64,000 nucleotides of DNA. Source: Listeria innocua (GTDB lineage Bacteria; Bacillota; Bacilli; Lactobacillales; Listeriaceae). Made by a program: the position numbers and the translations under genes. Below are positions 4,148 to 64,000 of this stretch, one piece after another (positions within the stretch are counted from its first letter, which is position 1; each line of letters starts with the position of its first letter). The stretch covers positions 1 through 64,000 of the forward strand of contig NZ_CP117229.1 in the NCBI RefSeq assembly GCF_028596125.1, read 5' to 3'. The notes below the pieces were generated by a model. The model ran no database searches. It saw only the letters and a program-made list of their open reading frames with translations, and was not told the DNA's origin.

Positions 4148-4260
4148 CCATTTTAATAAAAAAACGCCACAGAAGCTCATATTTTCTTTTTTTTAATAAA
4201 TAATATCCCCCCATTAGTTTTGCTAAAAAAAGCTGAAAAACGAATATATGAAAATATTCT

Positions 4261-4289
4261 TTGTATTATTAGCAAAACTTTAGTAAAAT
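4261..4289 (+). promoter_or_regulatory. Probable sigma-A promoter of yaaA-recF-gyrBA
   Basis: TTGTAT and TAAAAT are separated by 17 bp. An 11-bp inverted repeat (AGTTTTGCTAA at 4216-4226 and TTAGCAAAACT at 4269-4279) places its right arm in the spacer. Elements read from sequence; activity inferred. Confidence 0.5.
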
Positions 4290-4311
4290 AGAAGGTAGTG
4301 ATAAAAAAAGA

Positions 4312-4545
4312 TTGGGCGTGAAATTTTTGGCTGAAACAGTAAAGATAAATAGTGAGTTCGTAACGCTTGGTCAACTTTTACAAATGATTGATGTAGTTTC
4401 AACTGGAGGAATGGCAAAAGCGTACCTTAGTGAAAATACGATTTACATCAACGGAGAGCAAGATAATCGCCGGGGGAAAAAGCTTCGTAATGGCGATGTT
4501 ATCTTAGTTCCTGGTGTTGGAAAAGTGAAAATTGAGCAAGGATAA
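4312..4545 (+). CDS. yaaA: S4-domain RNA-binding protein YaaA
   Basis: Small S4-domain protein (77 aa) of the YaaA/RlbA family found beside recF in Firmicutes. It is thought to bind structured RNA and has been linked to ribosome assembly, but its exact role is unsettled. The S4 fold is visible in the segment from VTLGQLLQMIDVVSTGG through NGEQDNRRGKKLRNGDVI. The start is uncertain: TTG 4312 is used here, while GTG 4318 and TTG 4327 are in-frame alternatives and none has a strong Shine-Dalgarno sequence. recF follows after 6 nt, so the two are almost certainly co-translated. Confidence 0.9.
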   Translation: MGVKFLAETVKINSEFVTLGQLLQMIDVVSTGGMAKAYLSENTIYINGEQDNRRGKKLRNGDVILVPGVGKVKIEQG

Positions 4546-4551
4546 TAGCAG

Positions 4552-5664
4552 ATGCATTTAGAAAGCATTGTTTTAAGAAATTTCCGTAATTATGAAAACT
4601 TAGAACTAGAATTTTCCCCGTCTGTGAATGTTTTCCTTGGAGAGAATGCACAAGGTAAAACCAACCTTTTGGAAGCTGTGTTGATGCTTGCTCTTGCAAA
4701 ATCACATCGGACAACCAATGATAAAGATTTTATTATGTGGGAAAAAGAAGAAGCCAAAATGGAAGGGCGAGTAGTGAAGCGCGGGCAAACAGTGCCTTTA
4801 GAGCTTGCTATCACCCAAAAAGGCAAGCGAGCTAAGGTCAACCATTTGGAACAAAAGAAATTGAGCCAATATGTTGGTAATTTAAACGTGGTTATTTTTG
4901 CCCCAGAAGATTTATCGCTTGTGAAAGGTGCTCCAGGAGTTAGGCGCCGATTTTTAAATATGGAAATCGGACAGATGCAGCCGATTTATTTGCATAATTT
5001 AAGTGAATATCAGCGGATTTTGCAGCAACGAAACCAATATTTGAAGATGTTGCAAATGAAACGTAAAGTTGATCCAATGTTGCTTGATATTTTAACAGAG
5101 CAATTTGCAGATGTCGCCATTAATTTGACGAAAAGACGAGCTGATTTTATTCAAAAACTAGAGGCATATGCAGCGCCAATTCATCACCAAATTTCACGAG
5201 GATTAGAGACACTTAAAATCGAGTATAAAGCTTCTGTCACCCTTAATGGGGACGATCCCGAAGTGTGGAAAGCTGATTTACTTCAAAAAATGGAATCAAT
5301 CAAACAAAGAGAAATCGACCGTGGTGTCACACTTATTGGGCCACATCGGGATGATTCTCTGTTTTATATTAATGGGCAAAATGTGCAAGATTTTGGTTCA
5401 CAAGGCCAACAGCGGACAACGGCACTTTCTGTGAAATTAGCGGAAATCGACCTTATCCATGAAGAAACTGGTGAATATCCGGTTCTCTTACTCGATGATG
5501 TGCTCAGTGAACTAGATGATTATCGTCAATCGCATTTGCTCGGAGCTATTGAAGGAAAAGTACAAACCTTTGTAACAACCACAAGTACGAGCGGAATCGA
5601 CCACAATACGCTTAGACAAGCAACGACATTTTATGTAGAAAAAGGTACAGTAAAAAAATCCTAA
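4552..5664 (+). CDS. recF: DNA replication and repair protein RecF
   Basis: SMC-like ATPase that helps load RecA at single-strand gaps together with RecO and RecR. At 370 aa it is full length. The Walker A motif [14 protein letters not shown] lies near residue 30, and the Walker B/signature region [11 protein letters not shown] is near residue 315. It starts 6 nt after yaaA and is followed by gyrB after 48 nt, the conserved Firmicute order. Probably transcribed from the promoter before yaaA. Confidence 0.97.
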
Positions 5665-14497: not shown

Positions 14498-15557
14498 ACT
14501 ACAGGTTAAAATACCCGGAAAATTATATGTTGCTGGTGAGTATGCGGTGGTAGAATCCGGTCACACAGCCATTCTAACTGCAGTTAATCGTTATATAACG
14601 CTAACTCTTGAAGATAGTGAACGCAATGAATTATGGATTCCACATTATGAAAATCCAGTTTCATGGCCAATTGGCGGAGAACTTAAACCAGACGGGGAAC
14701 ATTGGACATTTACAGCTGAAGCAATTAATATCGCGACAACTTTCCTAAAATCAGAAGGTATAGAACTAACTCCTGTGAAGATGGTCATTGAAACAGAATT
14801 AATCGATCAGTCTGGCGCAAAATATGGACTCGGTTCAAGCGCAGCGGCTACGGTTGCTGTAATCAACGCGTTAATGACGAAATTTTATCCAGAAATATCA
14901 ATGCTTAAAAAATTCAAACTAGCTGCCCTTTCACATTTAGTTGTGCAAGGTAATGGTTCTTGTGGTGATATTGCTTCTTGTATGTATGGCGGCTGGATTG
15001 CTTATACGACGTTTGATCAAGAATGGGTGAAGCATCGTTTGGCTTATAAATCACTCGAATGGTTTATGAAAGAGCCTTGGCCAATGCTTCAAATTGAAAC
15101 ATTAGAAGAACCAGTACCGACTTTTTCTGTAGGTTGGACGGGCACACCTGTAAGTACTGGAAAACTAGTTTCGCAAATTCATGCATTTAAGCAAGAAGAT
15201 AGCAAGAATTATCAACATTTTTTAACTAGAAATAATGAGATTATGAAGCAAATAATTCAAGCTTTCCATACGAAAGACGAGGAATTGCTCTATTCATCTA
15301 TTAAAGAAAATCGGCGCATTCTTCAAGAACTCGGAACAAAAGCTGGCGTAAATATTGAAACAAGCTTGCTAAAAGAACTCGCGGACTCAGCCGAAAACAT
15401 GGGCGGCGCAGGAAAATCATCTGGCTCTGGTGGTGGCGACTGCGGAATAGCTTTCTCGAAAACGAAAGAACTAGCCGAAAAACTTGTCAATGAGTGGGAA
15501 AAGCTTGGTATTAAACATTTACCTTTCCATACAGGGAGAGTTCAAATTACTGAATAA
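14475..15557 (+). CDS. pmk: Phosphomevalonate kinase
   Basis: GHMP kinase that converts 5-phosphomevalonate to the 5-diphosphate, the step between mvk and mvaD. Motifs seen are PGKLYVAGEYAVVESG at the N-terminus, KYGLGSSAAATVAVINAL near residue 120 and SSGSGGGDCGIAF near the C-terminus. Two starts are possible. GTG 14475 has AAGGAA just upstream, while ATG 14487 gives the conserved family N-terminus but has no good Shine-Dalgarno sequence. Either way it overlaps mvaD. Last gene of the operon, followed by a strong terminator. Confidence 0.95.
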   Translation: MLYQMKNKLQVKIPGKLYVAGEYAVVESGHTAILTAVNRYITLTLEDSERNELWIPHYENPVSWPIGGELKPDGEHWTFTAEAINIATTFLKSEGIELTPVKMVIETELIDQSGAKYGLGSSAAATVAVINALMTKFYPEISMLKKFKLAALSHLVVQGNGSCGDIASCMYGGWIAYTTFDQEWVKHRLAYKSLEWFMKEPWPMLQIETLEEPVPTFSVGWTGTPVSTGKLVSQIHAFKQEDSKNYQHFLTRNNEIMKQIIQAFHTKDEELLYSSIKENRRILQELGTKAGVNIETSLLKELADSAENMGGAGKSSGSGGGDCGIAFSKTKELAEKLVNEWEKLGIKHLPFHTGRVQITE

Positions 15558-15563
15558 ATTTTA

Positions 15564-15599
15564 AGCAGCAAACTAAAATAAATAGTTTGTTGCTTTTTT
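15564..15599 (+). terminator. Rho-independent terminator of the mevalonate operon
   Basis: AGCAGCAAACTA pairs with TAGTTTGTTGCT (one G-U pair), followed by six T. Confidence 0.92.
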
Positions 15600-15670
15600 G
15601 TTTCGAATTTCACAATCTAGGGAATAGTGAACAGAATGAAAGTTTGTGAAATATTTAATATATCAGGTTT

Positions 15671-15699
15671 TTGAACTAAGGTATTAAATCAGATATAAT
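15671..15699 (+). promoter_or_regulatory. Probable sigma-A promoter of qoxABCD
   Basis: TTGAAC and TATAAT are separated by 17 bp. An inverted repeat, TTTCACAA (15608-15615) and TTGTGAAA (15644-15651), lies just upstream and could be an operator. The predicted transcript has a leader of nearly 200 nt before qoxA. Confidence 0.65.
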
Positions 15700-15705
15700 G
15701 AGTTA

Positions 15706-15900
15706 GAGTATGAACATAGTGATTCTAAAAATGCTAATCAGTTCAGAAAAAAGTTTGTGAGCTTTTTTAAAAGAATCAAATAGTAAAGCATTTTTTCAGT
15801 TACATAGGAGTTCTAAAAAGCTTCTTTCAGCACTCCGGTAATGGTATTTTTGCGCAAAAATACACATTAGAAAACATCAAAAGGAAAAGAGGGGATTCGG
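15706..15900 (+). promoter_or_regulatory. Long structured 5' leader of qoxA
   Basis: This occupies most of a 343-bp gap with no gene. It holds an imperfect hairpin at 15711-15745 (TGAAC/GTTCA and TGATT/AATCA). A GGAGT/ACTCC hairpin lies at about 15807-15836. A perfect 20-bp palindrome (GTATTTTTGC plus its complement) lies at 15844-15863, just before the ribosome binding site. I do not recognise it as a known riboswitch class. Structure is read by eye; function is unknown. Confidence 0.45.
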
Positions 15901-17007
15901 GTGTCAAAGGTACTTAAATCTTTGCTACTTACGGCACTACTTGGGGTTACCGGCCTTATAAGTGGTTGTGGTGACTTGACGGTACTTAATCCAAAAGGAC
16001 CAGTTGCAAAAGGTCAGTCGGACTTAATTATTTATTCGATTATATTTATGCTGGTTATTGTTTTGACGATTTTTGTATTGTTTACGATTATGTTGGTTAA
16101 ATACCGCGAACGGAAAGACATTTCAAACTATGAGCCAGATATGCATGGTAGTAGAAAACTGGAAATTTTTTGGACATTAATTCCAGTTGCTATCGTTATT
16201 GCTCTGGCTATTCCGACTGTAAAAACAATTTATGCAGGGGAAGAAGCACCAAAAGTGACTTCGCATAAAGATCCAATTGTTATTTACGCAACAAGTGCAG
16301 ACTGGAAATGGATTTTTAGTTATCCAGATGAGTCAATTGAAACAGTCAACTATGTAAATATTCCAACCGACCGTCCTGTTCTGTTTAAATTAACTTCGGC
16401 AGATACAATGACAAGTTTTTGGGTACCACAATTAGGTGGACAAAAATATGCGATGTCTGGAATGACGATGAATTTATATTTACAAGCAGATGAGGTTGGT
16501 ACGTATAAAGGCCGTAACGCAAACTTCAATGGTGAAGGATTTGCGGATCAACGCTTTGACGTAGTAGCTCAATCTGAAAAAGATTTCAAGAAATGGGCAA
16601 AAGAAACAAAAGCGAACTCGCCAGTTATTACGCAAGACACATATGACCGTCTTTTAATTCCTGGAAGCTCCAAGAAAAAAACTTATTCTGGTACGCATTT
16701 AGCATTTGTTGATGTAGCAGCTGATCCAGAGTATGTTTTCTATGCCTACAAACGTTTTGGTTATGAAATGACAAATCCACATAATCCGAACACAAAATCA
16801 ACCATTTCTGATAAACCAATGCTTCCGGTTCGTCCTGTGACAGTAACTAATCCGCAATTTGAGCGTCATGATATGAAGCCACAAATTATTAAAAACGGCG
16901 AAGGTTACCATGAGGATAAACACCGCGAAGATGAAATGAAGAAAATGGAAGAAGACATCCAAACAAATGAATTCAATAAAAAAGAATCGGATGACGCAGG
17001 GAACTAA
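15901..17007 (+). CDS. qoxA: Quinol oxidase (aa3-type) subunit II, lipoprotein
   Basis: Subunit II of the cytochrome aa3-600-type menaquinol oxidase in the cytoplasmic membrane. The 368 aa begin with a lipoprotein signal ending in LISGC, with Cys23 as the lipidated residue, followed by two transmembrane segments (about residues 40-65 and 85-105) and an external cupredoxin domain. The CuA ligand set of cytochrome c oxidases is not apparent, as expected for a quinol oxidase. The C-terminus is long, charged and Lys/Glu-rich. The start is GTG with AAAGAGGGGA upstream. First gene of qoxABCD. Confidence 0.95.
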   Translation: MSKVLKSLLLTALLGVTGLISGCGDLTVLNPKGPVAKGQSDLIIYSIIFMLVIVLTIFVLFTIMLVKYRERKDISNYEPDMHGSRKLEIFWTLIPVAIVIALAIPTVKTIYAGEEAPKVTSHKDPIVIYATSADWKWIFSYPDESIETVNYVNIPTDRPVLFKLTSADTMTSFWVPQLGGQKYAMSGMTMNLYLQADEVGTYKGRNANFNGEGFADQRFDVVAQSEKDFKKWAKETKANSPVITQDTYDRLLIPGSSKKKTYSGTHLAFVDVAADPEYVFYAYKRFGYEMTNPHNPNTKSTISDKPMLPVRPVTVTNPQFERHDMKPQIIKNGEGYHEDKHREDEMKKMEEDIQTNEFNKKESDDAGN

Positions 17008-17024
17008 AAGGGGGGACATAAGGC

Positions 17025-19004
17025 ATGAAATGGAATGAGTTTATCGTAACTGGTGACCCGATGATTTTAGGTGCGCAGATTTCTATCGTACTTGTAAGTA
17101 TTGGTGTTGTCGCGTTACTAACTTATACAAAAAAATGGAAGTGGCTCATGAAAGAGTGGATTTCTTCCGTTGATCATAAAAAAATAGGTATTATGTACTT
17201 GCTTGCTGCTGTCTTAATGTTTTTCCGTGGTGGCGTGGATGCGCTAATGATGCGTACCCAGCTCGCTTTACCGGACATGAAATTTTTAGACGCACAGCAT
17301 TACAATGAAGTATTTTCTACGCACGGAACAATTATGATTTTATTCATGGCGATGCCGTTTATCATTGGGTTGATGAACATTGCCGTACCACTTCAAATTG
17401 GTGCGCGTGATGTAGCATTTCCATTTTTAAACAACTTAAGTTTTTGGACGTTCTTTATGGGAGCGATGCTATTTAACTTATCATTCGTAATTGGTGGTTC
17501 ACCAGATGCTGGTTGGACAAACTATGCGCCACTTGCGACAGATTTTAGCGCTGGATATGGAATTAATTTCTATCTTCTAGGTGTTCAAATCGCTGGTATT
17601 GGTACGCTGATGACGGGGATTAACTTTTTCGTTACGATTTTAAGAATGCGTACAAAAGGTATGACTTTAATGAAAATGCCAATGTTTACTTGGTCTTCAT
17701 TAATTACAAGTTTGATCATTATTTTCGCTTTCCCAGTTTTAACAGTGGCACTTGCTTTGATGTCATTTGATCGACTGTTTGGGACAGCATTCTTCACACT
17801 CACGAATGGCGGGCTCCCAATGATGTGGGCCAACTTGTTCTGGGTTTGGGGGCATCCGGAAGTATATATTGTTATTTTGCCAGCTTTCGGTATTTTCTCA
17901 GAGATTATTTCTACTTTCTCCAGGAAAAAATTATTCGGTTATCCGGCGATGGTTGCCGCGATGGCAGTTATTTCTTTACTAAGTTTCCTAGTTTGGGTCC
18001 ATCACTTCTTTACAATGGGATCAGGGGCGCTTGTTAACTCCTTCTTCTCCATTACAACGATGATGATTGCGATACCGACCGGGATTAAGATATTCAACTG
18101 GCTCTTTACAATGTACAAAGGGCGAATAACCTTTACAACGCCAATGCTTTGGTCGCTTGCCTTTATCCCTAACTTTGTTGTCGGTGGGGTAACTGGGGTT
18201 ATGCTTGCGATGGCTGCGGCCGATTATCAATATCACAATACGTACTTCTTAGTATCCCATTTCCACTACGTATTAATTGCTGGGACAGTATTCTCCTGCT
18301 TTGCTGGGCTTACATACTGGTATCCAAAAATGGTCGGTTACAGACTAAATGAAAAAATTGGTAAATGGTTCTTCTGGATTTTCGTTGTTGGATTTAACGT
18401 TTGTTTCTTCCCGCAATATTTCCTAGGACTAGATGGTATGCCGCGTCGTATTTACACTTACGTACAAGGTGATGGCTGGACAACGCTTAACTTTATTTCC
18501 ACAGTGGGCGGATTCTTGATGGGTGTAGCATTCTTAGTTCTTTGCTACAACATCTACTACAGCTATAAAAACTCTAAACGTGAAGTTACTGGTGACCCGT
18601 GGGATGCTCGTACGCTTGAATGGGCTACAAGTTCTGCAGTTCCTCCAAAATATAACTTTGCTGTTTTACCAGAATGGAATGACTTGGATGATTTCTGGAA
18701 TAGAAAACAAAAAGGCGATCCATATGTAAATGATAAAAATTATAAACCAATCCATATGCCAAGTAATACCATGGTTGGGTTTGTAATGTCTGTCTTCTTC
18801 TTCATTGCAGGTTTCGGACTAGTCTTCTACTGGTACTGGATGGGAATTATTGGCCTAGTTGGTATTTTAGGATGTATGATTTATCGTTCATTCCAAAATA
18901 ACGATGGTTACCACGTTGAAGTGGACGAAATTAAAGCAACAGAAGAACATAATGCGCGCGAACTTGCGACTGGTGTGAAGGAGGGTAACCCATGGAATCT
19001 GTAG
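17025..19004 (+). CDS. qoxB: Quinol oxidase subunit I
   Basis: Catalytic heme-copper subunit that reduces O2 to water and pumps protons. The 659 aa contain about 14-15 transmembrane helices. Ligand motifs seen are the heme-binding His in [14 protein letters not shown], the CuB/crosslinked region [15 protein letters not shown], the VHHFF pair, and HFHYVL for the proximal heme ligands. Seventeen bases separate it from qoxA, with GGGGG as the ribosome binding site. Its end overlaps qoxC by 13 nt. Confidence 0.97.
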
Positions 19005-19603
19005 AAACAAATAAAAATCTGCCAATTGAATATAGATCAGAACAAGGTCGATTAAATATTCTTGGATTCTGGATTTTCCTTGGCGCCGAAATTGCATTGT
19101 TTGCGACGCTTTTTGCGACTTACTTTGTTATGAGAAAGGCTGGCTCGAATGCGGGTCATCCGCCAGCAGAAATGTTCGAACTTTGGCTAGTACTAATAAT
19201 GACATTTTTACTATTAGCAAGTAGTTTTACGTGTGGTCTAGCAATTGGTGAGATGCGTAAAGGCAATGTGAAAATGTTGACGATTTACTCGATTATCACA
19301 TTAATTCTTGGTGCGGGATTTGTTGGCTTTGAGCTTTATGAATTTGCACACTATGTGACAGAGGGCGTTACAATGCAAATCGGTTCTTACTGGTCAGCAT
19401 TCTTCGTTCTACTAGGGACACATGGACTTCACGTAACAGTCGGGATTTTCTGGATTAGTTTTATTCTAATTCAAATTAAAATGCATGGTTTGACGCCAAA
19501 AACAGCATCAAAAGTATTTATTTCCAGTTTATACTGGCATTTCCTTGATGTTGTGTGGATTTTCATTTTCACCGGTGTCTATTTGCTAGGGATGGTGAAC
19601 TAA
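18992..19603 (+). CDS. qoxC: Quinol oxidase subunit III
   Basis: Five-helix subunit III of the aa3-type quinol oxidase; 203 aa, as in the family. Features include the [23 protein letters not shown] first helix and the [13 protein letters not shown] and [18 protein letters not shown] helices near the C-terminus. The ATG start lies inside the end of qoxB, with GAAGGAGGGT upstream, so translation is coupled. qoxD starts two bases after its stop codon. Confidence 0.96.
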
Positions 19604-19604
19604 T

Positions 19605-19937
19605 ATGGCACAAAATAATAAATCAAATGCAGCTCATGCTGAAGGTGGCATTCCTTGGAAACATATTGTTGGTTTCGCGCTATCAATTATTTTGACGCTT
19701 CTAGCAGTCTGGGTAGCCATTTATTCGACGCTTACAACAAATGTTAAGGTAGTTATTATTTTCATCTTTGCGTTCATTCAAGCAGCCCTACAGCTTCTGA
19801 TGTTCATGCATATGACTGAAGGCCGCGATGGCAAAATTCAAATTGGTAATATTTTATTCGCAGCATTTATTGCGATTGTCGTAGTTATTGGTTCATATTG
19901 GGTAATGGAAATTGGCCATATGAATCACTTGTTATAA
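19605..19937 (+). CDS. qoxD: Quinol oxidase subunit IV
   Basis: Small subunit IV (110 aa) of the quinol oxidase with three transmembrane helices, including IVGFALSIILTLLAVWVAIYST and VVIIFIFAFIQAALQLLMFMHM. It is thought to help assemble the complex. It begins immediately after qoxC and is followed by a terminator, closing the operon. Confidence 0.95.
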   Translation: MAQNNKSNAAHAEGGIPWKHIVGFALSIILTLLAVWVAIYSTLTTNVKVVIIFIFAFIQAALQLLMFMHMTEGRDGKIQIGNILFAAFIAIVVVIGSYWVMEIGHMNHLL

Positions 19938-19948
19938 TTTAAAAAAGG

Positions 19949-19983
19949 CTGGTATGGAATTCATTTTCTGTACCAGTTTTTTT
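19949..19983 (+). terminator. Rho-independent terminator after qoxD
   Basis: CTGGTA and TACCAG form the stem, followed by seven T. Confidence 0.8.
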
Positions 19984-20030
19984 GCATTTTTAAAGGGATT
20001 AACAGCTCTTCTAAAAAAATTTTAAAATTA

Positions 20031-20065
20031 TTGCTTGCTATGTAATGCATTACATATTCTATAGT
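20031..20065 (+). promoter_or_regulatory. Probable promoter of the GH1 gene with a palindrome in the spacer
   Basis: Candidate elements are TTGCTT (20031) with TATTCT (20055), spacer 18, or TTGCTA (20035) with TATAGT (20060), spacer 19. The perfect 16-bp palindrome ATGTAATGCATTACAT (20040-20055) lies between them, a position suited to an operator. The cognate regulator is unknown. Confidence 0.45.
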
Positions 20066-20075
20066 GGAGAAGTAA

Positions 20076-21539
<1,464 letters not shown>

Positions 21540-21551
21540 GATATAGTAAAC

Positions 21552-21587
21552 CCCCACTTTCGGTGATGAAGGTGGGGATTTTATTTT
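21552..21587 (+). terminator. Terminator between the convergent GH1 and C39-peptidase genes
   Basis: CCCCACTTTC pairs with GAAGGTGGGG (one G-U pair), followed by ATTTTATTTT. It may also serve the minus-strand gene that ends at 21586. Confidence 0.8.
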
Positions 21588-22407
21588 AATATGAAATCGC
21601 GCGTTTTGCTTGTTTACTCCAACAAGTATTAAAATAACTTTGCGAAATTCGCGCATTTTTTTGACCAGACCAGCTGTCGTTATAGTAAAAATTGTTTTTA
21701 TCATAACCGGTAATGGTGATCGCGTGAACGGAAAAACCATGGAAATTACTAACCCAAGCTACGACCGGACGTTTTTTATTCAACTGATTTTTAATACCAG
21801 CTAAATTTGTCCCAGTCATATTCTTCGCGCTGCCAGTATATTTTTTCACTTGATTTACTAAAGCCGGTGGATAAATCGTCCAGCCACTTTTAGAGAACGG
21901 ATTCCCAACAAAACCATAATTTGGATTGGATTTATGTCGCTTCATTTCTTTTGCAAGCTTGACTTTATCAACATTTTTCCCAGCATAGCGCAGCATCATC
22001 GCAATATTAGTAATCTCACAGCCCGTTGGTAATTGTGGACGCTGAACAATTAATGGCACGTTCATTTGTACAATTTTTGGCGTTGATGGCGCTGGTGTAG
22101 GTGCAGCGGTTGCGGCTTTTACATATTTCCCAGATACATAGCCATTTTTCCCTTTAAAACTAAAGCGATACCAGTTGTTGGATGTTTTTGCGATTGCTTT
22201 AAATTTAGTATTATTTTTAAGCCAACCAATAACTTTCCCAGATGTCGCATTAGTTGAACGGACATTAAGGCTTGCGGTTGTTACCATTTGTTTATTAATC
22301 ACAGTTTCTTTCGCCGCTGCCTGACCGGTCGTTGCTACACTAAATACACTTAAAACTAACCCAAGAACAAGTATCCATTTCCCCCATTTACCAAAAAAAG
22401 TCCCCAT
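21586..22407 (-). CDS. Secreted SH3b plus C39-like cysteine peptidase
   Basis: 273-aa exported protein. A signal peptide (WGKWILVLGLVLSVFSVATTGQAAA, about residues 8-32) is followed by a bacterial SH3 domain (about 40-95) that may bind the cell wall, then a Pro/Thr/Ala linker. The C39_2-type papain-fold domain has its candidate catalytic Cys in PTGCEITNIAMML and His in FHGFSVHAITITGYD. Proteolysis or bacteriocin processing is not shown; a wall-associated peptidase is a family inference. Minus strand, with AGAGGGGGAT before its ATG, divergent from gntR. Confidence 0.85.
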   Translation of the reverse strand: MGTFFGKWGKWILVLGLVLSVFSVATTGQAAAKETVINKQMVTTASLNVRSTNATSGKVIGWLKNNTKFKAIAKTSNNWYRFSFKGKNGYVSGKYVKAATAAPTPAPSTPKIVQMNVPLIVQRPQLPTGCEITNIAMMLRYAGKNVDKVKLAKEMKRHKSNPNYGFVGNPFSKSGWTIYPPALVNQVKKYTGSAKNMTGTNLAGIKNQLNKKRPVVAWVSNFHGFSVHAITITGYDKNNFYYNDSWSGQKNARISQSYFNTCWSKQAKRAISY

Positions 22408-22462
22408 TATATCCCCCTCTGATTCAGATTACTTATTTATACCCTATTTTTTTAAAATGAAA

Positions 22463-22500
22463 AGAAAACGCTTGCATAAATAGAATGGCCGTGGTACTAT
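22463..22500 (+). promoter_or_regulatory. Promoter of the gntR-PTS operon with overlapping cre site
   Basis: TTGCAT (22472-22477) and TACTAT (22495-22500) have a 17-bp spacer. AGAAAACGCTTGCA (22463-22476) differs from the cre core TGNAANCGNTNNCA at one position and covers the -35 box, implying CcpA repression. Confidence 0.65.
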
Positions 22501-22507
22501 GAAAATG

Positions 22508-22523
22508 AACTTAACGTGTTAAC
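22508..22523 (+). promoter_or_regulatory. GntR operator copy 1
   Basis: AACTTAACGTGTTAAC, containing the inverted repeat TTAAC-GT-GTTAA, lies just downstream of the -10 box at about the transcription start. The same 16 bases recur 96 bp downstream. Likely autorepressor site for the adjacent GntR protein. Confidence 0.65.
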
Positions 22524-22603
22524 CGGTTATTAGTATAAAGTTCAGTGATAGCAGGCGAATTCAAGTTTGCAATCAAAAATGTATCATGGTACCATTAACC
22601 TAA

Positions 22604-22619
22604 AACTTAACGTGTTAAC
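22604..22619 (+). promoter_or_regulatory. GntR operator copy 2
   Basis: Exact copy of AACTTAACGTGTTAAC, 96 bp from copy 1 (about nine helical turns), just upstream of the gntR ribosome binding site. The spacing suits repression by looping. Confidence 0.6.
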
Positions 22620-22647
22620 GCGCGGGATGCTTTAGGGGGAAATTGTT

Positions 22648-23388
22648 ATGGCAGAACCAAAATACGCTATTATAATCAATGATATTAAGCGATTAATTAG
22701 TGACGGAACTTTTAAGCCAGGAGAAAAAATTTATTCAGAAGATGAACTGAAAAAGAAATACAATGTTAGTAATACTACAGTTGTTCGCGCTTTACATGAA
22801 TTAGTAAGAGCTGGAATTTTAGCGCGTTATCAAGGGAAAGGAACCTATGTTAGTAAATCTATTATTAACGAAGAAGTTATTTTTAATGAATATACGACCG
22901 TTCCTAATGGTAAATTCAACCGAAAAACAAAAATTGCTAACGAGCACACAAAAGTTGTAGCTATTAATGAAATTCAGGATGCGAGAATTGCCAAAAACTT
23001 GCAAATTCCACCTGAAAACATGATTGTTCATTTTCAACGAATTCGTCTGATTGATGATGTGCCTTGGACAGTACAAAACAACTATATGGCAAAAGCCAAT
23101 TTGATCAACGTAGATTTAACCAATTTTGAAAGATTTAATTCTTTATCAGAAGTAATTAAAGAGCTTTATGGTATTAATATTCTGCACGAAGCGATGAAAG
23201 AGCGAATTCAAGTCGAATTTCCAGTAAAAGACAAAAATAATTTTAAATTACTCGAAATTGACTCCGAACTACCGCTTTACCACATTGAAAGAATAACTTA
23301 TGTGCCAGAGGGGCAACCCTATGAATATATTGAAAGTTATTTACGGCATAATTTTTACTCTATTGAAATCGAAAAGAAAAAACAATAG
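22648..23388 (+). CDS. GntR-family (HutC/UTRA) transcriptional regulator
   Basis: 246-aa regulator with an N-terminal winged helix-turn-helix (GEKIYSEDELKKKYNVSNTTVVRALHELVRAGILARYQGKGTYV, about residues 25-70) and a C-terminal UTRA ligand-binding domain (YEYIESYLRHNFYSIEI at the end). Such proteins sense phosphorylated sugars or related effectors. It leads an operon with a mannose-family PTS and a SIS protein and so probably controls it. Two identical operator-like repeats precede the gene. The TTAGGGGGAA Shine-Dalgarno supports this ATG. Confidence 0.93.
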   Translation: MAEPKYAIIINDIKRLISDGTFKPGEKIYSEDELKKKYNVSNTTVVRALHELVRAGILARYQGKGTYVSKSIINEEVIFNEYTTVPNGKFNRKTKIANEHTKVVAINEIQDARIAKNLQIPPENMIVHFQRIRLIDDVPWTVQNNYMAKANLINVDLTNFERFNSLSEVIKELYGINILHEAMKERIQVEFPVKDKNNFKLLEIDSELPLYHIERITYVPEGQPYEYIESYLRHNFYSIEIEKKKQ

Positions 23389-23403
23389 AAGGGAGTTAAT
23401 TAC

Positions 23404-23805
23404 TTGGATTATATTATCGCAGCACATGGCCGGTACGCGCAGGAAGTGAAGAATAGTTGCCAAATGATTACTGGCCAAACAACGAATATCAAAGCAGTTA
23501 CTTTTACTGAAGAAATGGGGGTGAAAGATGTATTAGAAGCATACGCGGCAGTTTATTCACCTGGAAATGAAACCGCTATCATTGTGGATATTGTCGGTGG
23601 AACTCCGTGTAATGCCGCGCAAATGTTTCATGCAAAACACCCAGAAGTGAAGGTTGTGTCTGGGTTGTCACTCGGATTAATCATTCCGCTTAGTCTAGGG
23701 GAAACTTTAGAAGGAGCAATGCTTGGCGCGCAAGAAAATATTCAATTTGTGGAATTAAAAGTAAATAATACGATAATAAGCGATGATGGGGAGGAAGAGG
23801 ACTGA
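23404..23805 (+). CDS. PTS mannose/fructose/sorbose-family EIIA
   Basis: 133-aa EIIA of the mannose-class phosphotransferase system. It accepts phosphate from HPr on His8 (IIAAHGRYAQEV) and passes it to EIIB. The segment IVDIVGGTPCNAA is conserved in this class. The start is TTG, with AGAAGGGAG 10 nt upstream. Its stop overlaps the EIIB ATG by one base. The sugar is unknown; the neighbouring SIS protein hints at an amino sugar or similar. Confidence 0.93.
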   Translation: MDYIIAAHGRYAQEVKNSCQMITGQTTNIKAVTFTEEMGVKDVLEAYAAVYSPGNETAIIVDIVGGTPCNAAQMFHAKHPEVKVVSGLSLGLIIPLSLGETLEGAMLGAQENIQFVELKVNNTIISDDGEEED

Positions 23806-57952: not shown

Positions 57953-60900
57953 ATGAATAGAGAGGCTTTATTAATTGTTAGTAACGGGCAGCAATGTCAT
58001 AAACACCATTTGTCCCCTGAAAAAGTCGTGACAATTGGTAATACAATCGAACACGAAATTACTTATCCAGAACTAGTTGAATCAATGGAAGTTAAATATG
58101 ATGAAAACTCGTGGAATGTCGGTACAACAGCGCTTCAAGTGAACCAATCCGTGAAAGTGGACAATCTAGCATTTTATCTTTGCCAAGATTTGGATACGCA
58201 AGTGTATGATGTCGTCATGAACATTTCTGTAGCATTTGGCGCGGGAACGGAGAATGATGTTACGATTGATGGCACAAAATCAGACTTTTTACTTTTGCGT
58301 GATGCGAAGGAGAAACTGTTTAAATTACAAGTTTTAAATGGCGAAATTTATCATAATTTTTCTTTAGTAACAGAAGACTGCGTTCTAGAACCGGGTGATC
58401 AGCTCTATACGGACGGTGTGACGATTACAATCGGAAAAGAAGATATTAGTGTACTTGCTGTGAAAAATCGCGTGACGAGCAAATTAGCGCCTTTATTCGC
58501 AGCGGACAATTCGTTCGGTGAAGACTATCCAGATTATCACCGTTCTCCGCGGATTATTTACCGTGCTCCAGAAGAAAAAATCAGCATGGCGAAACCTTCT
58601 AGTAAGCCCTCCAAACCAACAGATGGCTTAATTAAGATAATTTTACCGCCGCTTATCATGGTTGCGATTACTGTGATGATTTCTATTTTCCAACCTCGCG
58701 GGCTGTATATTATTATGACCATCGCGATGTCGGCAGTAACGATAACGATGGCGATTATTAATTACGTAAAATCACGCAAAAAATACAAAATTGATTCAAA
58801 ACAAAGAATCGAGAGCTATGATCTATATTTAAAACGAAAAACAAAAGAATTACATGAAACAAGCGAGAAGCAACGCCACGCCTTAACTTACCATTATCCG
58901 GATGTAACTGAACTGGAAAAAATGGCGTTACGCGTGGATTCGCGTATTTATGAAAAAACAATGTTCCACCATGATTTCTTGACTTTCCGAGTTGGACGCG
59001 GCGCCGAAGCAAGTAGTTTTTCCGTCGAATTTCAACAAGAAGAATTTAGTCAGGACAAAGATGAACTTATTGATGAAGCTGTGAAAATCAAAGGACAATT
59101 TTTATCTATTAATGAAGTGCCAGTTGCGACAGATTTAATGCACGGACCAGTGGGTTACATTGGACCGCGCCGTTTAGTATTAGAGCAACTTCAAATGTTG
59201 GTAATGCAAACATCCCTTTTCCATAGTTATTATGATTTGCAATTTATTACCATTTTCCCAGAAGAAGAGAAGGCGGATTGGGACTGGATGCGCTGGTTAC
59301 CGCATGCGAATATGCGTGATGTGAATGTGCGTGGTTTTGTTTACCATGAACGTTCGCGCGACCAAGTGCTGAACTCGCTTTATCAAATTTTAAAAGAACG
59401 TAAACAAGCGCTCACTGAACAAGCGAGCAAGCAGGAAAAATTATATTTCACGCCACATTATGTAGTTTTGATTACCGATGAAAAATTAGTACTCGACCAC
59501 ACAGTGATGGAATTCTTCAATGAAGATCCAAGCGAACTAGGTGTTTCTTTAGTATTCGTACAGGATGTGATGGAGAGCTTGCCAGAACACGTGAAGACGG
59601 TCGTGGATATTCGTGATGCGAAGAGCGGGAACATTATTTTGGAACAAGGCGATCTGGTAAACCGAGCATTCGTGCCTGACCATTTGCCAGCAGATTTTGA
59701 CAAAGAAGTAATCAGCCGTGCTCTTGCGCCGCTAAACCATCTACAAAACTTGAAAAACTCTATTCCAGAATCCGTCACTTTCCTTGAAATGTACGGTGTG
59801 GAGCGTGTCGAGGAGCTAAACATTGCTGGACGCTGGGCGAAAAATGAAACGTATAAGAGCCTTGCTGTACCACTAGGCTTGCGCGGGAAAGACGATATTG
59901 TTCAATTGAATCTACATGAAAAAGCGCACGGGCCGCATGGTTTGGTAGCTGGGACGACTGGTTCTGGTAAATCAGAAATCATTCAGTCTTACATTATCTC
60001 ACTGGGCGTCAATTTCCACCCATATGAAGTCGCATTCTTGCTAATTGACTATAAAGGCGGCGGAATGGCGAACTTATTTAAAAACATGCCCCATTTACTT
60101 GGAACAATTACAAACTTGGACGGCGCGCAATCCATGCGTGCACTAGCTTCCATCAAAGCCGAATTGCAAAAAAGGCAACGGTTATTTGGCGAGCACGATG
60201 TTAACCACATCAACCAATACCAAAAACTATACAAACAAGGAAAAGCGACCGAACCAATGCCGCATTTATTCCTGATTTCGGATGAGTTTGCCGAGCTGAA
60301 ATCAGAACAACCAGAATTCATGAAAGAACTCGTTTCGACAGCACGTATCGGGCGTTCACTCGGAATCCATTTAATCCTAGCAACCCAAAAACCAAGCGGC
60401 GTCGTGGATGACCAAATCTGGTCCAACTCCAAATTCAAACTGGCCCTAAAAGTACAAAACGCCAGCGATTCAAACGAAATTTTGAAAACACCAGACGCAG
60501 CAGAAATTACACTACCAGGTCGTTCATACTTGCAAGTTGGTAATAACGAAATTTACGAATTGTTCCAGAGTGCTTGGAGTGGCGCGGATTATGTGCCAGA
60601 TAAGGAAAGCACGGATTATATTGATACGACGATTTATGCAATTAATGACTTGGGTCAGTATGATATTTTGACAGAGGATTTGAGCGGATTAGATAAGAAG
60701 GATGATTTGACGAAACTGCCGAGTGAACTTGATGCGGTGATTGATCATATTCATGCGTATACGGAGGCTTCTGGGATTGAGGCGTTGCTGAGACCTTGGC
60801 TGCCGCCGCTAGAGGAACAAATTTTCTTACCAGAATTGCACCAAGTAAATACTGAAGAGCTATGGAGCGGTGAGAAACAACCTCTTCAAGCTACCATTGG

Positions 60901-62449
60901 CTTTTTAGACATACCACAAATGCAAGCGCAAGAGCCATTAACAATTAATTTGGCAAAAGATGGGCATTTAGCTGTGTTTTCTAGCCCAGGTTACGGTAAA
61001 TCGACTTTCTTACAAACAATAACAATGGACTTAGCAAGACAGCATAACCCTGAAAGATTGCATGTTTATTTACTAGATTTAGGAACAAATGGGCTACTAC
61101 CTTTGAAAAAATTACCGCATGTTGCTGACACGATTATGGTAGATGAAGAAATTAAAATTGGAAAACTTATTCGTCGCTTAACACTAGAATTAAAAGAACG
61201 TAAGCAAAAATTGAGTAAATATGGTGTTGCGAATATTTCAATGTATGAAAAAGCAAGTAAGGAAGAAGTTCCAGCAATTTTACTCGTTATAGATGCATTT
61301 GATTCTGTTGGAGAAGCCCCTTATAAAGATGTATTTGAAAAACTAATTGCTCAAATTGCTCGTGAAGGAGCGAGTGTAGGGATTCATTTAGTTATGAGTG
61401 CAGTTAGACAAAATGCTATTCGAGTACAAATGTTAGCAAGTATAAAACATCAAATACCGTTATTTATGATTGAACCAGGTGAAGCAAGAAGTATTGTAGG
61501 AAAAACCGATTTAGCCATTGAAGAACTTCCGGGCCGTGGATTAGTTAAATTAGAAGAGCCAACTGTTTTCCAAACGGCACTGCCAGTTTGCGCGGATGGA
61601 ACACTTGAAATTATTGAAAAAATCCAAGCGGAAAGTGAAGCGATGTCTAGCGAGTGGAACGGATCACGACCTGCGCCAATTCCAATGGTACCTGAAGTTA
61701 TCAATATGCTTGAATATCTAGAAAATAAACAAGTCCAAAAATCATTTTCAGAAGGAAAAACGCCAATAGCAGTAGATTTTGAAGATGTATTACCAGTCAA
61801 TTTAGATGTGCAAACAGATGGCAACACACTTGTTTTAACAGATAATGCAGATGTTTTGGAAAGAACCATGGTTTCGCTAACTGAACTAATTGGTCAGAAT
61901 ATGGAAGTGGATATTGCTCTATATGACAATTCGTCTAACAGATTCCAACAGTACAGAAACAACGTAAATATATACGCAGGTGAGGAAACTGCCATGAATA
62001 GTGCTTCAGAGCAAATTGTTAGCGTACTCGAAGCTCGAGAAGATGGTTGGAAGGAGATTCAACGGGCATCGAATGGAGAAATCACACTCAAAATGTATGT
62101 TGAAGAATTACGACCAATGTATGTACTACTAACGGATAGTATCTATGCTGCGGAACAGATGTCTCTGGAAGCTAGGAAAAATATGGTCCGACTAATTGAA
62201 AATGGACCTAAATTAGGTATCTACTTTGTTACCGGAAGCCAAACAGGAATTCTATATAGAGCTCGAGATGAAATTTCTGGTGAATTACGAAAACAAAAAA
62301 CCGGTATCTTACTTGGACGGATTTCAGATCAAAATATTCTCAGTCTCATAAACAACATCTATAAAGAAGCTCTGCTAGCGCCGTATGAAGCGTATTACAT
62401 TAAACAAGGTCAATATGAAAAAATTAAACTTATTGCACCAAATCAATAA
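57953..62449 (+). CDS. essC: EssC, FtsK/SpoIIIE-type ATPase motor of type VII secretion
   Basis: 1498-aa membrane ATPase driving export. Two forkhead-associated domains come first (about residues 1-190), then two membrane helices (about 220-265). ATPase D1 has Walker A GTTGSGKSE near 667 and Walker B LFLISDE near 770. D2 has SSPGYGKST near 1010 and ILLVIDAFDS near 1108. A degenerate third domain follows (about 1250-1498). From about base 60820 the sequence looks more AT-rich than the preceding kilobase, which suggests an exchanged 3' portion. In Listeria and S. aureus the EssC C-terminus is variable and determines which substrates are exported. GGGAGAATGAACC precedes the ATG. Confidence 0.96.
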   Translation: MNREALLIVSNGQQCHKHHLSPEKVVTIGNTIEHEITYPELVESMEVKYDENSWNVGTTALQVNQSVKVDNLAFYLCQDLDTQVYDVVMNISVAFGAGTENDVTIDGTKSDFLLLRDAKEKLFKLQVLNGEIYHNFSLVTEDCVLEPGDQLYTDGVTITIGKEDISVLAVKNRVTSKLAPLFAADNSFGEDYPDYHRSPRIIYRAPEEKISMAKPSSKPSKPTDGLIKIILPPLIMVAITVMISIFQPRGLYIIMTIAMSAVTITMAIINYVKSRKKYKIDSKQRIESYDLYLKRKTKELHETSEKQRHALTYHYPDVTELEKMALRVDSRIYEKTMFHHDFLTFRVGRGAEASSFSVEFQQEEFSQDKDELIDEAVKIKGQFLSINEVPVATDLMHGPVGYIGPRRLVLEQLQMLVMQTSLFHSYYDLQFITIFPEEEKADWDWMRWLPHANMRDVNVRGFVYHERSRDQVLNSLYQILKERKQALTEQASKQEKLYFTPHYVVLITDEKLVLDHTVMEFFNEDPSELGVSLVFVQDVMESLPEHVKTVVDIRDAKSGNIILEQGDLVNRAFVPDHLPADFDKEVISRALAPLNHLQNLKNSIPESVTFLEMYGVERVEELNIAGRWAKNETYKSLAVPLGLRGKDDIVQLNLHEKAHGPHGLVAGTTGSGKSEIIQSYIISLGVNFHPYEVAFLLIDYKGGGMANLFKNMPHLLGTITNLDGAQSMRALASIKAELQKRQRLFGEHDVNHINQYQKLYKQGKATEPMPHLFLISDEFAELKSEQPEFMKELVSTARIGRSLGIHLILATQKPSGVVDDQIWSNSKFKLALKVQNASDSNEILKTPDAAEITLPGRSYLQVGNNEIYELFQSAWSGADYVPDKESTDYIDTTIYAINDLGQYDILTEDLSGLDKKDDLTKLPSELDAVIDHIHAYTEASGIEALLRPWLPPLEEQIFLPELHQVNTEELWSGEKQPLQATIGFLDIPQMQAQEPLTINLAKDGHLAVFSSPGYGKSTFLQTITMDLARQHNPERLHVYLLDLGTNGLLPLKKLPHVADTIMVDEEIKIGKLIRRLTLELKERKQKLSKYGVANISMYEKASKEEVPAILLVIDAFDSVGEAPYKDVFEKLIAQIAREGASVGIHLVMSAVRQNAIRVQMLASIKHQIPLFMIEPGEARSIVGKTDLAIEELPGRGLVKLEEPTVFQTALPVCADGTLEIIEKIQAESEAMSSEWNGSRPAPIPMVPEVINMLEYLENKQVQKSFSEGKTPIAVDFEDVLPVNLDVQTDGNTLVLTDNADVLERTMVSLTELIGQNMEVDIALYDNSSNRFQQYRNNVNIYAGEETAMNSASEQIVSVLEAREDGWKEIQRASNGEITLKMYVEELRPMYVLLTDSIYAAEQMSLEARKNMVRLIENGPKLGIYFVTGSQTGILYRARDEISGELRKQKTGILLGRISDQNILSLINNIYKEALLAPYEAYYIKQGQYEKIKLIAPNQ

Positions 62450-62465
62450 TTGAAAGGAGCTGTTA

Positions 62466-62864
62466 ATGATGGGTCTAACAGATTTCTGGAAAACACCTAC
62501 TGAGAAAAAACGAGATGAATACGATAAGCTGCATGACTATCTAAAAGATGCTCTCAAAAAACATGATGAAAAAATGGCAGAAGTAAAAAGTGATTTGAGT
62601 GCGTATAAAAAAGGAATGCCTGATATGCCGAGCAAAGGTATTCCTGCAAATCCGTTTGTAGAAAAAAATGAGAAAGTCTTAGAGCAGCTTGAAAAATATA
62701 TAGATAAAGAAAAAGATAAACGTGCCAGTTTGAAAAGTGCTATTGATACAGCTTATAGAAAATATTTAGAGTATAAAGCATTGGCCATAAAAGAAGAAAA
62801 AGCAGAGCAAGCAAAGAAAGAGAAGGAGAAAAAAGAACGAGAGGAGAGGCTAAAGAATGGGTAA
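62466..62864 (+). CDS. EsxC/EsaC-like small helical protein of the type VII locus
   Basis: 132-aa, very Lys/Glu-rich, mostly helical protein. Its position directly after essC and its length match S. aureus EsxC (formerly EsaC), a type VII substrate; sequence-level homology cannot be tested here. Notable parts are the N-terminal LTDFWKTPTEKKRDEYDKLHDYLKDAL, a Pro-rich turn (GMPDMPSKGIPANPF) and a C-terminal coiled coil of Lys and Glu. GAAAGGAGC precedes ATG 62466. Its end overlaps the next gene by 8 nt. Confidence 0.75.
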   Translation: MMGLTDFWKTPTEKKRDEYDKLHDYLKDALKKHDEKMAEVKSDLSAYKKGMPDMPSKGIPANPFVEKNEKVLEQLEKYIDKEKDKRASLKSAIDTAYRKYLEYKALAIKEEKAEQAKKEKEKKEREERLKNG

Positions 62865-63156
62865 TGTGAAAATTGATGCCGCAAAAGTTGCTGAAGCTAA
62901 AAAATCGGCTGCCATAGTGGAAAAAAGCTTAGAATCAACACATAAAAAATGCAAATCAGTTATTTCTTATGTAGAAGGCGCATCTTGGAGTGGTAAATCG
63001 CGGGACGCTTTCCTTACCTTCATGGAATTAATTGAAAAGTATCATGCTGATGTGAAGAAAAACTATAAAAAGCAAAAGAAAGCATTAACTTCCTTAGAAG
63101 ATTATGTAGAGGATTTTGAGAATACTTCATACTTCAAGGATGTGAAAAGACTATGA
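62857..63156 (+). CDS. EsxB-like WXG100-type protein
   Basis: 99-aa helical hairpin with a WXG turn at ASWSGKSRDAF (Trp44-Gly46), the same residue position as in EsxA. The flanking helices are Ala/Lys/Glu-rich. It lies third in the esxC-like/esxB-like pair, matching the S. aureus order, and is probably a co-secreted partner. AGAGGAGAGG upstream, overlap with both neighbours (8 nt and 4 nt), so the module is tightly coupled. The terminus ends in SYFKDVKRL. Confidence 0.85.
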   Translation: MGNVKIDAAKVAEAKKSAAIVEKSLESTHKKCKSVISYVEGASWSGKSRDAFLTFMELIEKYHADVKKNYKKQKKALTSLEDYVEDFENTSYFKDVKRL

Positions 63157-63854
63157 CAGTGGAAACGATAGACGTATTTTCCCCTGTTGAGTTATACCTT
63201 TTACTTTCTCCAATCGATGCGCAACACTTATTTGGTGTTCCTGACAAGCTTACTTTTTTATTAAAGGGAGAAGATGTTTTTGCTGAAGGGTTTGACCGGC
63301 TCAAGAGTAAAGGGATATTAAATAATGCAGGCGAGCTAACGGATGGCGGCGGCTTTTTGATTGATTCCTTAATTGAATATTATCAAAGTAAAAAGTATGT
63401 GCGTATGAACCAGTTGATGTTTGCTTTTCCAGAAAAAACACCCAATGAACTACTTGTAATGATTGAGATAACTCCTCAAAGAGAATATCGATTTGAACGA
63501 ATGAATAAAATTTATGCGCTAGAAATGATAAAAGATTTCTTTCCGCTCATTCGTAGAGAACCTGGTGAAAGAGAGACTGAGTTTCTAAAAGAAGAATTGA
63601 CTAATGAAGAGCGTAAACGAGCAACTGCTTTTGATCCGGAGAAAAATTTTATTAGTATGGAATTCTTTCATGTGGATGAGGAACCAAAAGAAAAAAACAA
63701 TGCTAAATATTACAAACAGTACTTGGCATTTGAGATGGAAGACAAATTAATGATGATAGATGTTGTAAACGATACCTATTACCATGGAAGTCAGTATGCT
63801 TTATTAAAATTATTGTTTGATGAACTTGAATTTCCTTATGAGGAGGCTAAATAG
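63153..63854 (+). CDS. EssE/EsaE-like (DUF5081-type) type VII accessory protein
   Basis: 233-aa soluble protein beginning VETIDVFSPVELYLLLSPIDAQHLFGVP. No signal peptide or membrane segment is evident. Its position after the esxB-like gene and its size match S. aureus EssE (EsaE), a chaperone that delivers the EssD nuclease toxin to EssC. I infer DUF5081 from context and general appearance, not from a search. It overlaps the previous gene by four bases (ATGA), and its end supplies the Shine-Dalgarno of the next gene. Confidence 0.65.
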   Translation: MTVETIDVFSPVELYLLLSPIDAQHLFGVPDKLTFLLKGEDVFAEGFDRLKSKGILNNAGELTDGGGFLIDSLIEYYQSKKYVRMNQLMFAFPEKTPNELLVMIEITPQREYRFERMNKIYALEMIKDFFPLIRREPGERETEFLKEELTNEERKRATAFDPEKNFISMEFFHVDEEPKEKNNAKYYKQYLAFEMEDKLMMIDVVNDTYYHGSQYALLKLLFDELEFPYEEAK

Positions 63855-64000
63855 ATGGCACAACAAACGATGGGCGGTGCAGGAGCCGCTTCTACAATAG
63901 ATATTAATCCAGATGAAATGACTCATATTGCCAAAGAGCTACTAGCTATTGCCAATGAATTTGAGGGTGTGATAAAACCAGCAATAAATCAGTTAAAAGC
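63855..64000 (+). CDS. Start of an EsxD-like or LXG-type type VII substrate gene (cut by the window end)
   Basis: The reading frame from ATG 63855, one base after the preceding stop, is open to the window end (48 complete codons). It reads MAQQTMGGAGAASTIDI then NPDEMTHIAKELLAIANEFEG, a helical segment. GAGGAGG lies 9 nt upstream. By position it may be EsxD-like (about 100 aa); the N-terminus of a larger LXG-type toxin is the alternative. Confidence 0.7.
   Translation, partial: MAQQTMGGAGAASTIDINPDEMTHIAKELLAIANEFEGVIKPAINQLK

Follow-up and report, generated by a model that had tools for sequence, protein, structure and literature searches.

The DNA that extends from about codon 953 of essC to about position 71,970 of contig C2 in this Listeria innocua genome is very probably an exchangeable cassette of a type VIIb secretion system (T7SSb), uniting the D2-D3 end of EssC with an EsxC-EsxB-EsaE-EsxD-like carrier set and with YeeF/EsaD-type polymorphic toxins and immunity genes. 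The window analyzed here is the whole stretch of 64,000 nucleotides, corresponding to C2 1-64,000 in a genome of 2.89 Mb, and the locus was read on in the same contig. A sequence-only reading of the window had proposed a possibly exchanged EssC C-terminus with a variant-specific substrate module; this observation was confirmed as a whole, and its interpretation was partly supported. This kind of cassette (EssC tail, carrier set, and toxins) has already been described, and the window holds a case with a TNT toxin whose tail is probably EssC1-type, as judged from the YeeF/EsaD-type module (in the parts of PMC10327511 used here) rather than from a typed EssC1 reference.

Gene layout of the essC locus

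The features from essC to the right of the variable block were as follows (window coordinates unless C2 is given).

57953-62449, + strand: essC, a single open frame of 1498 codons
57953..60807, + strand: conserved stretch of essC (codons 1-951), reaching to the D1/D2 linker
60808..60822, + strand: codons 952-957, left-hand junction of the exchanged block, close to the RPWLPPL motif in the D1/D2 linker
60823..62449, + strand: variant-specific 3' part of essC (D2 + D3), with the D3 boundaries set at about 61553-62446
62466..62864, + strand: EsxC-like small protein, 132 aa, with relatives at the same place in module-bearing loci
62857..63156, + strand: EsxB-like WXG100 protein (Pfam WXG100), 99 aa
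63153..63854, + strand: EsaE/EssE-like targeting chaperone, DUF5081, 233 aa
63855..64187, + strand, last part beyond the window: EsxD-like small protein, 110 aa, with relatives at the same place in module-bearing loci
C2 64,201-65,934: TNT toxin gene, 577 aa, TNT domain at residues 487-575
C2 65,949-66,563: 204-aa gene, candidate immunity gene, 14 bases downstream of the TNT toxin gene
C2 68,553-70,097 (L005:10654-12198): second toxin-like gene, open frame starting late
C2 72,041: conserved PEP-mutase family gene, right of the variable block

The whole EssC protein matched the TIGR03928 EssC equivalog at 1949.2 bits (cut-off, 778.4) over residues 190-1493, and the solved D2-D3 structure 5fv0 aligned to codons 981-1493. 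From essC through the EsxC-like, EsxB-like, EsaE-like, and EsxD-like genes, the gaps are 16, -8, -4, and 0 bases, which bears out the earlier description of these genes as tightly overlapped, and the order of the open reading frames supports the proposed module order, the EsxC-like and EsxD-like genes being named by place and size. The gene at 63855, previously called truncated, is indeed cut by the window end, but it is the 110-aa EsxD-like gene, and the toxin gene starts only at C2 64,201.

The EsxB-like protein scored 54.6 bits against Pfam WXG100 (cut-off, 27.3) and 19.9 bits against NCBIfam WXG100, below the cut-off of 44.85. No family in Pfam or NCBIfam rose above cut-off for the EsxC-like protein, and none did for the EsxD-like protein, in which WXG100 reached 13.7 bits, under the cut-off; the YxxxD/E targeting motif reported for Staphylococcus aureus EsxD, which is not treated here as defining EsxD, was absent by eye from its last 30 residues. 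The NCBIfam search did not help to name the toxins, the small proteins, or the immunity candidates. The 233-aa chaperone matched DUF5081, with which EsaE has been equated (PMC13093988), above the Pfam cut-off. An EspG fold is predicted for this chaperone and was seen by fold comparison only, a search of solved structures with the DUF5081 profile having returned nothing up to E = 1; in comparison with the mycobacterial ESX EspG chaperones, sequence identity is 7-10%, and the partner is a YeeF-type toxin complex, not PE-PPE.

Bowran and Palmer reportedly described in 2021 Listeria EssC variants with a variable region 1. In the excerpts of PMC10327511 covered here, L. monocytogenes has eight EssC variants, with more in the genus, that differ in D2 and D3 and have variant-specific substrates, and truncated second essC copies occur. 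The window shares with these variants the conserved essC 5' part, the variable D2-D3 tail, the variant-specific substrate module downstream, and the YeeF/EsaD-like toxins found with EssC1, many variants being common to several Listeria species; neither the TNT cassette nor a junction at codon 953-957 was found described in those excerpts. In S. aureus, according to the parts of PMC4788903 consulted, EssC variants differ in the last ATPase domain and have their own gene set each, and recombination has been inferred. The order and kinds of genes in the window are the same as in the S. aureus essC1 module (esxC-esxB-esaE-esxD-esaD-esaG; PMC10653861 and PMC4788903, in part), but a TNT toxin replaces the EsaD nuclease and the window's genome has no DUF600/EsaG; moreover, whereas the variable part in S. 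aureus is largely the last ATPase domain, the break in the window lies before D2.

Boundaries and probable exchange of the block

When essC was aligned across Listeria genomes, amino acid identity to other-variant essC of the same clade was 97-99% over codons 1-940 and then collapsed, identity being lost near codon 955 and not uniform past it. The likelihood change point in nucleotide identity fell at codons 953-956 (window 60,808-60,819) in 7 of the 11 other-variant sensu stricto comparisons (G017, G016, G002, G024, G003, G018, and G019), so the boundary estimated by eye at 60816 was right to about 10 bases. In the remaining four comparisons it fell at codon 1034 (G020), 1048 (G011), 1103 (G022), and 1191 (G005), the last being the end of the G005 open reading frame. 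By 20-codon bins, the identity of G011, G020, and G005 also starts dropping at codons 941-980, and G022 shows no such drop because its D2 resembles that of the window. The same-variant genomes G014 and G012 have no break at codons 953-956 (best change point at codon 1230, gain 12-14); amino acid identity to five other variants is 53-60% at codons 950-1200 and 22-29% past codon 1200, versus 92% and 83% for the same variant in these two genomes. Among eight sensu lato sequences, change points lay at codons 328, 1212-1213, or 1377, mostly at 1212-1213, which is the point where D3 starts evolving faster.

Actinobacterial systems have a divided EccC, made up of EccCa and EccCb. Matches to the EccCa and EccCb models, each under its cut-off, span residues 214-877 and 933-1449 of the window's EssC, which puts the Listeria junction close to the same linker, a coincidence worth testing rather than a result.

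The base composition changes near the same place. Third-position G+C (GC3) in the window's essC falls from 0.40 to 0.23 at codon 975 (window about 60,875), a change point whose log-likelihood gain is 22.0, compared with at most 5.0 in 100 shuffles. The drop in G+C noted earlier after about 60.8 kb is therefore real, but it does not count as evidence for exchange in this one strain, since the step recurs in each of the 13 essC genes tested from the sensu stricto clade, which cover every tail type seen there (their change points span codons 952 to 1098). It is a general mark of the variable region, and its use as proof of a recent swap was ruled out.

On the right side, conserved DNA resumes at C2 71,970-72,019 in 8 of the 11 comparisons, at 71,854 in G018, and at 71,291 in G017; G024 had no match for the right-hand conserved DNA within the stretch compared. 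The 3.8 kb to the right of the block is 94.7% identical to L. farberi, and the core DNA is 88.8% identical to an L. monocytogenes record.

Several side observations concern other copies of essC. Short essC remnants in G012 and G014 lie immediately within the right end of the variable block, and second partial essC copies were seen in 6 of 24 essC-bearing Listeria genomes (G020 C1 60,938; G015 C1 90,252; G014 C1 122,303; G011 C5 58,051; G012 C1 72,737; G004 C13 116,679), with none in the window's genome. In G021, a 2.1-Mb Listeria genome (95% complete), FtsK-like matches only and no essC were found.

By the N-terminal part of EssC (N-part), the nearest relative of the window is L. farberi, whose tail is of a different variant. 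Fourfold-site identity between the two declines from 102/125 in codons 600-900 to 10/40 in codons 950-1200 (Fisher p 1e-10), a drop that reflects old divergence next to a young N-part and not simply relaxed constraint. The alternative that nothing was exchanged and that the EssC tail evolves faster in place, under weak constraint or arms-race selection, is already disfavored and highly improbable. Even among loci of one type, D3 evolves fastest, and the frequent change point at codon 1212-1213 in the sensu lato comparisons agrees with such evolution in place; against it, tails fall in discrete classes across species (D3 97-99% identical in amino acids between different genomes within a class and 20-30% between classes), identity between G014 and L. 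immobilis drops from 99.7% over codons 1-600 to 27% beyond codon 1200, and the module label changes 15 times on the N tree and twice on the D3 tree (below). Two rejected candidates belong here. In L. farberi (G005; L127, frame interrupted before D3 at about 3900-4808), EssC looked naturally split, with a separate gene for D3; this was dismissed as a new type and taken as an ordinary variant with an interrupted frame, because the separate D3 open reading frame is 277/291 identical to the G003 D3; the apparently broken L. marthii essC was set aside, since the stretches concerned hold runs of N in a draft record.

Exchange of the tail, the preferred reading, also appears in pairs of other genomes. 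Between G003 and G018 the tail is younger than the N-part (fourfold sites, 99/106 in D3 versus 152/226 in the N-part; p 5e-8), and the same holds for G017 and G002 (p 0.002); such pairs indicate transfer between genomes assigned to different species. The window's own case is less directional: its fourfold-site identity to L. marthii does not differ between N-part (198/296) and tail (138/199; p 0.62), so that its tail may be as old as the species split. It is accordingly possible, at appreciably less than even probability, that the cassette descended vertically in the window's lineage, with L. farberi and other relatives having lost or swapped theirs and with no recent import. That account, however, disputes the direction of exchange only, not exchange itself, and the younger tails of the other pairs speak against it. 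The description of the C-terminus as exchanged consequently holds for the lineage, since L. farberi carries another variant, and either of the two may be the one that swapped. The swap would have proceeded by homologous recombination, in the conserved essC 5' part on one side and in the conserved DNA to the right of about C2 72,000 on the other.

Association of D3 with the downstream module

The claim that a variant-specific module lies downstream of the EssC tail was supported in the sensu stricto genomes: the EsxC-EsxB-EsaE-EsxD-like set was present in 4/4 genomes with the window's tail and in 0/11 with other tails (p 0.0007), a sample that includes related genomes. The comparison was widened to 87 loci, after 12 listed duplicates or fragments had been removed, of which 57 from Listeria, Bacillaceae, Enterococcus, and others were usable; the other 30 had less than 2.5 kb downstream or an N-part less than 54% identical. 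Among these 30, L037, L039, L050, and L066 bear the module with D3 identities of 43-56%, the DUF5081 match in L092, L093, and L101 is partial and comes with no match in D3, and L105 matches WXG100 weakly. D3 identity to the window was 39-100% in 22/22 module-bearing loci of the 57 and 22-32% in 34/35 without the module.

The area under the curve (AUC) for the presence of the module in the 57 loci was 0.977 for D3, 0.894 for D2, and 0.536 for the N-part; neither these values nor the permutation counts below come from independent samples, because near-related loci, such as two of Robertmurraya korlensis, stay in the set. With near copies removed, nearest-neighbor errors were 32/60 for the N-part, 19/61 for D2, and 11/61 for D3. 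A scan along essC predicted the module at 0.30-0.53 over codons 1-775, which is chance level (base rate, 0.57), rose at codons 926-1000, and peaked at 0.90 at codons 1251-1300. Quick trees of 61 rows, which carried long-branch warnings, needed 15 module label changes on the N tree (13 forced by starred, well supported branches), 6 on the D2 tree (3 forced), and 2 on the D3 tree (2 forced), while shuffled labels need about 20. Moreover, in 23 module-bearing loci, the association of DUF5081 distances, given the N-part, was 0.86 with D3 (0/500 permutations as high) and 0.18 with D2 (36/500), and the values for the three small proteins were 0.61-0.78 for D3 and 0.35-0.47 for D2. Taken from sequence comparison, these results point to D3, more than D2, as the part that travels with the EspG-fold chaperone and its partners.

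It is rather unlikely, in our estimate, that D2, or D2 and D3 together, is the specificity element and that D3 tracks the module merely by chromosomal nearness. D2 tracks the module too, with the AUC and the six label changes given above, the published variable region in Listeria comprises both domains in the excerpted text of PMC10327511, and physical linkage alone could make D3 follow the module better than D2. Loci with mismatched domains argue the other way. In G022, which is EssC8-like, D2 is 83% (84% at codons 950-1200) and D3 29% identical to the window's, and the window's module is absent; its locus (L117, 8096-14081) carries three small genes and then a 1656-aa Rhs gene, the arrangement published for EssC8, and G022 is a natural D2/D3 recombinant. 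Likewise, L. ilorinensis has a D2 at 70% and a D3 at 28% identity and no module. D2-D3 together has been proposed as the recognition place for toxin complexes (PMC13355648, in part). Our literature search, partial in coverage, found no published D2-against-D3 comparison across genera.

The pairing of D3 with the module has two exceptions. L. goaensis (L042) has a window-type D3 (53%) with an LXG-type cassette adjoining essC instead of the window's module (locus 14532-23612, with a YeeF-type toxin gene 7.5 kb further on), and in Bacillus sp. DNRA2 (L060) the module lies 7.6 kb downstream from essC, whose D3 is of another type. Scores for the S. aureus D3 of known structure (6tv1) were 57.3 bits with the profile of module-bearing D3 and 102.7 bits with the broader, more diverse module-less profile; the match between D3 and module is therefore one seen in Listeria and Bacillaceae and may not extend to Staphylococcus.

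Toxins, immunity candidates, and proposed function

Extending the sequence beyond 64000 revealed genes of toxin and immunity type, as had been anticipated, though of other families. An EssD/EsaD-type nuclease had been expected, but the C-terminus of the 577-aa toxin is a TNT domain (Pfam PF14021, tuberculosis necrotizing toxin; 82.3 bits versus a cut-off of 27), present in one copy in the whole genome (C2 65,659-65,925). A match to pre-toxin TG in the same protein is weak (21.6 bits; cut-off, 23.5). The expected DUF600-type immunity gene was contradicted by a whole-genome search for DUF600/YezG (PF04634), which gave 0 matches while the control rang in Bacillus subtilis; nuclease and DUF600 immunity were both ruled out in this way. 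The toxin is a predicted NAD-destroying protein that differs from the TNT family as known in the fusion of its TNT domain to a YeeF/EsaD-type N-part within a T7SSb locus. EsaD-like toxins with NAD+ glycohydrolase or deaminase ends sit at EsxC-EsxB-EsaE-EsxD loci according to the parts of PMC10653861 available.

The TNT toxin gene is followed by the 204-aa gene, two Imm59 genes, the second toxin-like gene, and some unknown genes. By its position, the 204-aa gene is likely the immunity gene of the TNT toxin. A relative in G017, 88% identical over 195 aa, occurs where the toxin is absent, as expected of an orphan immunity gene. The second toxin-like gene is 90.8% identical in DNA to the first over 1261 bases and then has a different end, for which the loci searched held no relative. 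As a separate observation, the G017 locus (L118, 11559-14688) has close relatives of both the 204-aa candidate and an Imm59 gene beside another EssC tail and no toxin.

The excerpts of PMC5994694 report that the EssC variant decides which substrate S. aureus secretes and that EssC2-4 can stand in for EssC1 for EsxA, not for EsxC, while EsaD joins EsxB, EsxC, EsxD, and EsaE in a complex, and these four help to export it (PMC10653861, in part). For the window, D2-D3 would be the substrate-recognizing end of the EssC motor, and the EspG-fold chaperone and its small helical partners may form a shaft with the N-part of the toxin, which would dock on the matching D3. The TNT domain could then destroy NAD in a rival bacterium, with the neighboring immunity protein presumably shielding the producer.

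We tentatively propose, at odds not far short of even, that EssC D3 and the EspG-fold chaperone EsaE are lock and key and form one traveling unit in Listeria and Bacillaceae, with at least about 13 swaps of the cassette on the EssC N-tree, D3 and module being kept together, that D2/D3 recombinants such as EssC8 put the key in D3, not D2, and that the swap point in Listeria is the D1/D2 linker matching the EccCa/EccCb split. A boundary estimated by eye is now confirmed with numbers, and a TNT toxin case is added to a known system for fighting between bacteria. Moreover, the 57-locus comparison and the three trees point to D3, with the EspG-fold chaperone as its partner, by which a recent open point becomes testable.
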